Translations under genes and position numbers: made by a program
The notes under the pieces: model-generated
The model's database searches: none
What the model saw: the letters and a program-made list of their open reading frames with translations, nothing else
What the model was told of the DNA's origin: nothing
Shown: positions 51,712-53,072 of the stretch, piece after piece
How positions within the stretch are numbered: position 1 is the first letter of the stretch
How the letters are laid out: each line of letters opens with the position of its first letter
DNA from: Planctomycetota bacterium
Lineage (GTDB): Bacteria > Planctomycetota > Phycisphaerae > Phycisphaerales > SM1A02
NCBI GenBank assembly: GCA_016872915.1
Contig: VGYQ01000007.1
Location: 1 to 61,668 of the forward strand
Length of the DNA stretch: 61,668 nucleotides
Direction of reading: 5' to 3'

Positions 51712-51945
51712 TCAGGCGCCGCCTTCAGCGGGCCGAATCTGTCCAATGACGTTCTTGGTGGGGTCGACGGCGCCGGCGAGAATCTGCTCCGCGACTTCCT
51801 TGCGGTGGACCGCGACTTCGCGCGGAAACTCGAAGGCAATGCGAACACGGTCGCCCTTGATGGAAGCGATACGAACGATGCCGATCGGGGACGCAGGGTT
51901 CCCGATAACGACCTCTTCGCCTTCTCGTCGAGTGATGACCAGCAT
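51712..51945 (-). CDS. csrA: Carbon storage regulator CsrA
   Basis: This 77-residue protein begins MLVITRREGEEVVIG and has the RNA-binding strand PREVAVHRKEV with the critical Arg, as in E. coli CsrA. CsrA dimers bind GGA motifs in hairpin loops of mRNAs, usually over the Shine-Dalgarno sequence. A C-terminal extension of about 20 residues follows. AGGAGG (51960-51955) lies nine bases before the ATG, one of the few strong Shine-Dalgarno sequences here and itself a potential CsrA site. The leader and the next RNA element upstream are rich in GGA hairpins. No flagellar genes are nearby, so the classical fliW partner is absent. Confidence 0.95.
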   Translation of the reverse strand: MLVITRREGEEVVIGNPASPIGIVRIASIKGDRVRIAFEFPREVAVHRKEVAEQILAGAVDPTKNVIGQIRPAEGGA

Positions 51946-51998
51946 GCCGTCGGACCTCCTGCCCTGATGCAGCGGGGCTTCACCCGCTGACTTGGTCG

Positions 51999-52035
51999 GT
52001 TCGCCTCCGGCGCACCATGCGCCTTCCCTGCGAAC
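51999..52035 (-). promoter_or_regulatory. Structured csrA leader with GGA-containing internal loop
   Basis: In the minus-strand RNA, GTTCGC (52035-52030) pairs with GCGAAC (52004-51999) and GGCGCA (52023-52018) pairs with TGCGCC (52014-52009) around TGG. The internal loop exposes AGGGAA on one side and GGAG on the other. Together with AGGAGG at the ribosome binding site it could allow CsrA autoregulation. A weak promoter, TTGGTT (52088-52083) and GATGCT (52065-52060) with 17-base spacing, would produce this leader. Confidence 0.45.
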
Positions 52036-52150
52036 AACTTGGACGAGTGTCATCGACCAAGCATCCGACCTACTTGAAGGGTAACCAAGATGGACCCAAA
52101 GACGATGAAACTGCAGCAAAACAGGCGAAAATTGCCCGTTATCGGAGCAT

Positions 52151-52186
52151 AAAAAAAGCCCCCGCGTCGGGCCAGTGACGCGGGGG
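52151..52186 (-). terminator. Rho-independent terminator after mraZ and the GGA-hairpin RNA
   Basis: On the minus strand GACGCGGGGG-type pairing joins 52186-52177 with 52168-52159 (10 bp, 8-base loop), then one C and seven T (52157-52151). It ends transcription that enters from mraZ, 180 bases upstream. Confidence 0.88.
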
Positions 52187-52380
52187 GCGCAATAACAGTG
52201 GCTCCGCGCCGACTGTCCGTGCCTGTCGCCGTCCTGGCTGCGGCACGCCCGAGGGCCATCCGTGGCCCGAAGTTCGTGCTTCGGCGATGCGTCCCTGCAG
52301 CGCCCAAGCGTTGTCGATTCGCGCCCGCATCCTTGCGTGCGCGCGAGGTCTACTGAGCGTGGCGATCCTTCACCGCGCTC
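52151..52380 (-). ncRNA. Candidate CsrB-like CsrA-sequestering RNA between mraZ and csrA
   Basis: The minus-strand RNA carries a row of hairpins with GGA in the loop. Hairpin 1 (52380-52355): GAGCG-C-GGTG, loop AAGGAT, CGCC-A-CGCTC. Hairpin 2 (52343-52320): CGCGC-A-CGC, loop AAGGAT, GCG-G-GCGCG. Hairpin 3 (52304-52283): GGCG-C-TGC, loop AGGGAC, GCA-T-CGCC. Hairpin 4 (52268-52253): GGGCC, loop ACGGAT, GGCCC. All four loops fit ANGGAN, the CsrA/RsmE consensus, and three share the same one-base internal mismatch. Weaker GGA loops follow at 52238-52228, 52228-52210 and 52210-52200, then the terminator. Hairpin 1 begins in the last codons of mraZ and no separate promoter was found, so the RNA may be a 3' UTR-derived product of mraZ mRNA. 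csrA is the next gene on the same strand. Confidence 0.65.
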
Positions 52381-52840
52381 CCCCTTGTCTTGCGTTCATC
52401 AACTGATTGGCCTGTTGCCACAGCGATGCTGTGGACGCAGTCCTGTCCCTCGCCCCGGCCTTCCATGCCGCGGATGCGATGAGTTCGAGATGATCGCGCA
52501 CGCCGAGAATCACGATGGATCCTGCCAAGCCAAAGCGCGTCAAAAGCCGATCTGGAATTCGCACGCGGCCAGCCGTGTCGAGCGGGCAGCGCGCGGCCTG
52601 GCTGTAGAACGATCGCTCGAAGCGGCGCAGCACATCGTCGCCGATCAACGATCCCTCTTGACTCATTGCCAGACGCTCGAATGTCTTGCTCGGCCACAGC
52701 GTCAGCACGTCGTCCGCTCCCGGCACTGCGACAAAATGGTCGCCATTCACTGCTGGATTGAGCACCTCTCGCAGTTCGCTCGGAATGGCGAGGCGCTGCT
52801 TTGCATCGAGACTGTGTTCGTATTCGCCGAGAAAGAGCAT
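52370..52840 (-). CDS. mraZ: Transcriptional regulator MraZ
   Basis: This 156-residue protein has two AbrB-like MraZ domains: MLFLGEYEHSLDAKQRLAIP at the start and ARCPLDTAGRVRIPDRLL near residue 80. MraZ forms an octameric or dodecameric ring and represses its own promoter and the cell-division cluster in many bacteria. Here it is not followed by rsmH or fts/mur genes. ATG 52840 matches the family start; the frame extends to 52888 but that part overlaps the promoter. The C-terminus is Gln/Ala-rich. Its mRNA continues into the GGA-hairpin RNA. Confidence 0.94.
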   Translation of the reverse strand: MLFLGEYEHSLDAKQRLAIPSELREVLNPAVNGDHFVAVPGADDVLTLWPSKTFERLAMSQEGSLIGDDVLRRFERSFYSQAARCPLDTAGRVRIPDRLLTRFGLAGSIVILGVRDHLELIASAAWKAGARDRTASTASLWQQANQLMNARQGGAR

Positions 52841-52867
52841 CGGTGCGGTCCATGAGTGACTGCATGC

Positions 52868-52895
52868 ACTATACCCACTATGCCCCACCTTGCAA
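52868..52895 (-). promoter_or_regulatory. mraZ promoter with MraZ-type operator repeats
   Basis: TTGCAA (52895-52890), a 16-base spacer and TATAGT (52873-52868) form a good sigma70 promoter. The spacer contains TGGGG (52887-52883) and TGGGT (52877-52873) with a 10-base period, the arrangement (TGGGN repeats with 5-base spacers) to which MraZ binds in other bacteria. Transcription would begin near 52861, 20 bases before the ATG. This predicts autorepression. Confidence 0.65.
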
Positions 52896-53029
52896 CACTT
52901 TTCAACAAAAATTGAATTTTACGCCACACATTGAACTGCAAAATGGAGGTCCGAGAAGAAAAAATTTCACATCATCGAACCATAAGTGATTGAAAAACCA
53001 ATAGTTGTGGACAAAGCTCTTTATCGCCC
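52896..53029. other. AT-rich intergenic segment between mraZ and the flavin reductase-like gene
   Basis: This 134-base stretch is much richer in A and T than its surroundings (for example 52960-53010). It contains one imperfect DnaA-box-like site, TTGTGGACAA at 53005-53014, and TGGACA (53008-53013) that can serve as a -35 element 16 bases before TACACT (53030-53035). No gene was found in it. Confidence 0.4.
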
Positions 53030-53035
53030 TACACT
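53008..53035 (+). promoter_or_regulatory. Promoter of the flavin reductase-like gene
   Basis: TGGACA (53008-53013), a 16-base spacer and TACACT (53030-53035) give a start near 53042 and a leader of about 31 bases containing GGAG (53058-53061) before ATG 53073. Confidence 0.5.
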
Positions 53036-53072
53036 CGGATCGACCGGAAAGATTTTTGGAGACGCATCTCGC

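Follow-up and report, generated by a model that had tools for sequence, protein, structure and literature searches.

A 61,668-nucleotide stretch of planctomycete DNA (contig VGYQ01000007.1, positions 1 to 61,668, hereafter called the window) carries, directly after mraZ and on the mraZ strand, an array of hairpins that look like sites for the protein CsrA. Hairpins of this CsrA-site-like kind are found after mraZ across one planctomycete class, and they are densest in the family to which the window belongs. From the sequence record we infer transcription of the array, its binding by CsrA and its action in trans, and we consider it probable (about 0.68) that the 3′ untranslated region (UTR) of the mraZ mRNA is a sponge RNA that titrates CsrA. 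If this reading is true, the link to mraZ joins global post-transcriptional control to the transcription of cell division, and an RNA-type antagonist of CsrA can be found in one genome with a protein antagonist, FliW.

As described in 2014, CsrB-type RNAs were known from gammaproteobacteria alone, and two motifs had been predicted outside that group (PMC4333381). Literature searches on CsrA or CsrB with planctomycetes, and on CsrA with mraZ, yielded no account of such an RNA among the matches listed (titles, the starts of abstracts and open-licence texts), which is not proof of its absence.

The hairpin array at the window locus

The features of the locus are as follows, with the basis of each in parentheses.

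52151-52380, minus strand: array of putative CsrA sites (candidate sponge RNA) that opens with hairpin 1 and closes with the terminator T-tract (fold, shuffles, covariation)
52355-52380, minus strand: hairpin 1, GAGCG-C-GGUG[AAGGAU]CGCC-A-CGCUC, which holds the mraZ stop codon (fold, genus alignment)
52320-52343, minus strand: hairpin 2, loop AAGGAU (fold, genus alignment)
52278-52309, minus strand: hairpin 3, a long imperfect stem capped by the loop AGGGAC (fold, genus alignment)
52253-52268, minus strand: hairpin 4, GGGCC[ACGGAU]GGCCC (fold, genus alignment)
52218-52247, minus strand: hairpin 5, apical GCC[AGGAC]GGC (predicted fold)
52200-52210, minus strand: hairpin 6, GGC[GCGGA]GCC (predicted fold)
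52151-52186, minus strand: intrinsic terminator, a 10 bp stem followed by a T-tract (alignment, terminator scan)
52370-52840, minus strand: mraZ, directly upstream of the array and overlapping it (PF02381)
52868-52895, minus strand: predicted promoter of mraZ, TTGCAA-16-TATAGT, whose spacer holds two MraZ-box-like GTGGGN repeats at 52888-52873 (promoter scan, genus sequences)
51712-51945, minus strand: csrA, the sole CsrA gene found in the window's genome (profile match, structure alignment)
51946-52090, minus strand: structured csrA leader, with the Shine-Dalgarno sequence inside a GGGC[AGGAG]GUCC hairpin (downstream of the terminator; own promoter not found)

Folded as minus-strand RNA, the array reaches −116.6 kcal/mol, against −101.3 ± 4.5 kcal/mol for 200 shuffled sequences, none of which folded as low (z −3.39). 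Four hexaloops fit ANGGAN (AAGGAU at 52370-52365 and 52334-52329, AGGGAC at 52296-52291 and ACGGAU at 52263-52258), and hairpins 1 to 3, judged by eye from the fold, have a common 1x1 mismatch beneath the apical stem. The predicted fold places ANGGA in hairpin loops four times, against 0.09 times in shuffled sequences (0/500 reach 4), and GGA of any kind six times, against 0.52 (0/500). Counted with stems of 3 or more, ANGGAN hexaloops number 14 across the whole window, 4 of them within the array, and no 230-nt stretch elsewhere in the window holds three or more.

An earlier note on this DNA had described a CsrB-like RNA between mraZ and csrA with four ANGGAN hexaloops, three of them on hairpins of one common mismatch design, and a terminator, and it had argued that GGA is placed in stem-closed hexaloops more often than chance allows. 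These details are borne out, the terminator lying at 52186-52159 and being followed by C and T7. The three weaker GGA loops it reported fared less evenly: two are present in the predicted fold (AGGAC at 52235-52231 and GCGGA at 52207-52203), but an additional ACGGA at 52220-52216 falls outside the hairpin loops. The RNA does lie mostly between the two genes, but the mraZ stop codon TGA (52372-52370) sits inside hairpin 1, with its A as the first base of the loop, and the array is thus not cleanly intergenic.

Like this array, CsrB and CsrC of Escherichia coli carry many hairpins with GGA loops, and CsrB is likewise closed by a terminator. Applied to these RNAs with plain GGA, our loop counter returned 9 loops for CsrB (1.39 in shuffles) and 4 for CsrC (0.69); with ANGGA it returned 1 (0.38) and 0 (0.19), so the ANGGA criterion is stricter than CsrB itself can satisfy. 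The array differs from both in lying right after mraZ on the mraZ strand, in another phylum, and in its loops, which are mostly ANGGAN hexaloops where those of CsrB are mostly C[AGGAU]G. No Rfam Csr/Rsm family matched the window at its gathering score or, up to an E value of 1, any of 20 relatives (the RsmW model gave 18.6 bits, with 52 required), and we rejected membership in these families for want of a model match. The array would work like CsrB by design, while homology to the Csr RNAs is unsupported by the Rfam models.

The loops of the array also agree with the consensus RUACARGGAUGU obtained for CsrA by in vitro selection (SELEX) (PMC4347634). TwoAYGGAY and Bacillaceae-1 are likewise RNAs predicted from CsrA motifs outside the best-known Csr RNAs (PMC4333381), the former listed from the human gut, gammaproteobacteria and Clostridiales (PMC2864571); neither matched the window at gathering score or any of the 20 relatives up to an E value of 1, and TwoAYGGAY (RF01731) had no match within 51900-52500 up to an E value of 5. 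A further parallel is the flaA mRNA of Campylobacter jejuni, which codes for a protein and is both a target and a sponge of CsrA in an organism that bears FliW (PMC4894983); its sites lie in the 5′ leader, whereas those described here lie after the mraZ stop codon.

The CsrA encoded in the window aligns with solved CsrA and RsmE chains and keeps the TRR and VHR segments, which we take to be those that contact RNA. The relatives of this CsrA bear planctomycete names, many of them Phycisphaerales, and the class that we sampled is presumably Phycisphaerae.

Conservation of the array and its association with mraZ

We found csrA in 18 of the 19 genus genomes, the window's included, and the order mraZ, spacer, csrA is kept in 18/18. 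Across the 18 aligned sequences the A and the GGA of loops 1 to 4 are invariant and the stems show compensated changes. With the structure fixed as hairpins 1 to 4 plus the terminator, which is what the covariation count covers, 95.4% of cells are paired, against only 36-48% when the partners are slid by 1-3 columns, and 67 cells are changed on both sides, against 23.8 ± 4.0 in shuffles (0/500). Covariation that preserves the ANGGAN loops, which the earlier note had named as support for the RNA, is therefore present. It comes mainly from hairpin 2 (double changes at 5/9 aligned pairs, 91.4% of cells paired), hairpin 3 (6/8 lower pairs, 87.5%) and hairpin 4 (2/5 pairs); hairpin 1 hardly varies in its inner stem, and neither does the terminator, whose stem is 100% paired in the 18 sequences. 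Among 87 family-level sequences, which include L032-L111, taken from a CsrA search of genome contigs and without family assignment, 99/177 perfect hexaloop hairpins are ANGGAN on the sense strand, against 0/177 on the antisense strand. GGA is frequent in GC-rich DNA, but chance GGA in a GC-rich, stable RNA is ruled out for practical purposes by the shuffles, the antisense control and the covariation.

A covariance model built from the genus found full-length matches (E < 0.01) downstream of mraZ in 17 of 43 sources other than the window. Its scores can derive in part from the terminator and its matches are weak beyond the genus, and we have for these reasons mapped the distribution of the array by counting loops rather than with the model. 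One count covered 160 loci with mraZ, which gave 134 distinct sequences once duplicates were merged, each with 60 shuffles; its counted region runs from mraZ to the terminator or for up to 350 nt. Four relatives (G017, G028, G032, G053) had no mraZ match, and four others (G042, G043, G046, G047) were left out of the loop counts. The class was sampled through the best 30 of 113 MraZ-positive genomes and 40 regions chosen mostly by E value, from which rows of the window's own order and family and repeats were moved out to leave 63 sequences; the other classes are represented by the best 29 of 125 MraZ-positive genomes by E value.

The mean number of ANGGA hairpin loops after the mraZ stop codon is 4.33 in the genus (18 genomes, all with at least 3), 3.61 in the family's remaining 18 genomes (16 of them with 3 or more) and 2.29 in the other families of the order (21 sequences, at least 3 in 8, recounted without L128, the second mraZ of family f1). 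It is 1.15 and 1.78 in two samples from the rest of the class (27 and 36 sequences) and 0.31 in other classes (29 sequences, none with 3 or more); in these groups the shuffled means are 0.08-0.13 and the antisense means 0.00-0.07. The highest number of perfect ANGGAN hairpins in the locus set that contains it, seven within ~500 nt after mraZ, was observed in L116 (genome G041).

The conserved partner of the array is mraZ, not csrA. Proximity to csrA, which the earlier note had pointed out, is not the conserved feature: at least two ANGGA loops follow mraZ in 40 of 41 distinct loci where csrA lies on the opposite strand (at least three in 39/41), much as in 39 of 40 loci where csrA lies on the same strand. 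An element anchored to csrA was rejected as a candidate: in 14 csrA loci (L132-L142, L149-L151) mraZ is missing from the vicinity, and these have no cluster and at most one ANGGAN hairpin each.

CsrA, FliW and the limits of the distribution

Within the class, CsrA was found in 115 of 120 genomes, and four of the five genomes without it are all the members of family f16 in the sample (G070, G079, G085, G097). The mraZ spacers of f16 are 351-409 nt long, yet their loop counts are 0, 0, 1 and 0, whereas the 59 others among the 63 sequences sampled from the class beyond the order average 1.59 (Mann-Whitney U test [MWU], p 0.011, a value that overstates independence because the f16 pattern is probably one evolutionary event).

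Several observations weigh against the sponge reading. The fifth genome without a detected CsrA, G077 (87% complete, 720 contigs), has 2 loops. Family f4, of the same order, has weak arrays (0, 1, 2 and 2 loops), and outside the order 12 of the 63 class sequences have no loop at all, three of them from f16. In those sequences the hairpins lie mostly between mraZ and rsmH, a position also compatible with regulation in cis. At genome scale the genus model matched 18/19 genus genomes and gave only weak matches in the 18 others. The other classes are, moreover, a weak outgroup control, with CsrA detected in 11/29 and 18/29 lacking detectable CsrA. The scarcity of loops outside the class arises in part from this frequent absence of CsrA, so the limit at the class border is not firm, and the absence fits an array that depends on CsrA. 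Of the 11 outgroup genomes that do bear CsrA, eight lack such loops, one has a single loop, and both members of family f46 have 2 each. These two (G238 and G252; L226 and L238) have nine CsrA matches each, and 0/40 shuffles reach their 2 loops, which points to convergence or else to an array whose origin is wider than the class.

Planctomycetes are among the groups that possibly use FliW (PMC4682653); antagonism of CsrA by sRNA and by FliW has been termed mutually exclusive (PMC7366521), and in a 2020 review joint action of FliW and sRNA in any species was still to be determined (PMC7652899). We found FliW in 39 of 61 relatives, and detected neither FliW nor flagellin in the 19 genus genomes (G000-G018). 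The genus genomes also have at most one CsrA match each, linked to mraZ, and 32 of the 39 FliW-positive genomes have two or more. Where the mraZ region was examined, at least three ANGGA hairpin loops were present in 21/21 FliW-negative genomes and in 19 of 32 FliW-positive ones (at least two in 27 of the 32). Joint action of FliW and an sRNA is thus directly testable in the 19. Six genomes of family f5 have only a CsrA linked to FliW, yet carry 4, 1, 2, 2, 1 and 3 loops after mraZ, so the array is not bound to one CsrA paralogue.

Transcription, rival explanations and origin

Transcription of the sponge RNA would start upstream of mraZ, pass through mraZ and the array, and stop at the intrinsic terminator. 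The four good and two weaker putative sites would offer room for about two to three CsrA dimers, and the array would sequester CsrA from mRNA leaders whenever mraZ is transcribed. CsrA activity would then drop as mraZ expression rises, MraZ autoregulation setting the amount, and the active form could be the intact mRNA or a processed 3′ fragment.

One rival, an unlikely one in our judgment, is regulation in cis, in which CsrA would control the stability or translation of the mRNA that bears the sites (mraZ, and rsmH where it comes next) with no meaningful titration. It is consistent with the position of the sites on the mraZ strand and with the gene order outside the window's order, where rsmH comes next after mraZ in 53 of the 63 class sequences and the long spacer (median 327 nt) bears the hairpins. 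Family f5 further hints that mraZ may itself be a target: in all six of its sequences (L115, L117, L119, L122, L124, L126) a perfect ANGGAN hairpin lies between −25 and −31 relative to the estimated start of mraZ, a hairpin absent from the other 125 of the 131 sequences tested (out of 134, with mraZ starts estimated). This pattern is suggestive of repression of mraZ translation by CsrA in family f5. Set against this, the order has more sites, with three or more in 16 of the 18 other genomes of the family, yet no rsmH was found within 1200 nt after mraZ (0/93 sequences, the genus loci L001-L019 being left out and L128 included), and so many well-formed sites beyond the stop codon exceed the need of a single regulatory site.

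We give about the same low credence to an independent CsrB-like sRNA gene, driven by a promoter that lies within the 3′ end of mraZ. The compact, terminator-closed form of the array, 200-230 nt like that of known Csr sRNAs, speaks for it. Every promoter-like match on the minus strand of 51900-53050, however, lies upstream of mraZ, including TTGCAA-16-TATAGT, and neither the array nor the coding part of mraZ contains one; this negative carries little weight, because the scan likewise missed any promoter of csrA. The two GTGGGN repeats in the spacer of the predicted promoter, which we take to be MraZ boxes, recur in 18/18 genus sequences and in many relatives, though not in every one. Nor is synonymous conservation raised at the 3′ end of mraZ (0.43-0.56, against 0.43-0.61 in the body), and the stop codon is part of hairpin 1. 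Hairpin 1 overlaps the stop codon and promoter-like matches lie only upstream of mraZ, so a gene of its own is less likely for the array than a place in the mraZ 3′ UTR or in a fragment released from that region. The earlier proposal of a CsrB-like sponge keeps its core, an array of CsrA sites that would titrate CsrA, which conservation, covariation, strand and distribution strongly support, and is to be revised as regards csrA as the partner and a separate gene.

Recognition of the hairpins by a protein other than CsrA is very improbable. CsrA binding is itself deduced from the letters of the array, but the loop and its closing pair match the CsrA SELEX consensus, and the loops are scarce in f16, the family without detectable CsrA.

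Gene context suggests an origin for the array. In the usual arrangement of the cell-division cluster mraZ is followed by rsmH, which in other classes comes next in 21/29 sequences with a median spacer of 94 nt. Of ten open reading frames scanned downstream of mraZ in the order, four had matches to unrelated Pfam families and six had none; beyond the order, all five scanned from the class proved to be rsmH. Because the mraZ-rsmH spacers of the class hold hairpins and the larger arrays of the order stand without rsmH, the array seems to have arisen in this spacer and to have been enlarged where mraZ left the division cluster. A class-wide circuit may be drawn from these elements, in which the MraZ promoter would yield the sponge and division-linked transcription would set global CsrA activity, alongside FliW in many species, with a feedback loop through the mraZ leader in one family and with the spacer origin and later enlargement just described. 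We offer it tentatively, as a composite with somewhat less than even odds.

Two further parts of the locus are conserved. Beyond the terminator, 15 genus sequences share a structured csrA leader (51946-52090, minus strand), made up of a branched part whose GCANGGA internal loop never varies, one more hairpin, and the hairpin that encloses the Shine-Dalgarno sequence; double changes occur in 8 of its 33 predicted pairs, no Rfam family matched it, and it may be a csrA autoregulatory site. At the start of mraZ, synonymous codon identity among the 18 genus sequences is 94% over the first ten codons (52840-52811, minus strand), compared with 43-61% elsewhere in the gene.
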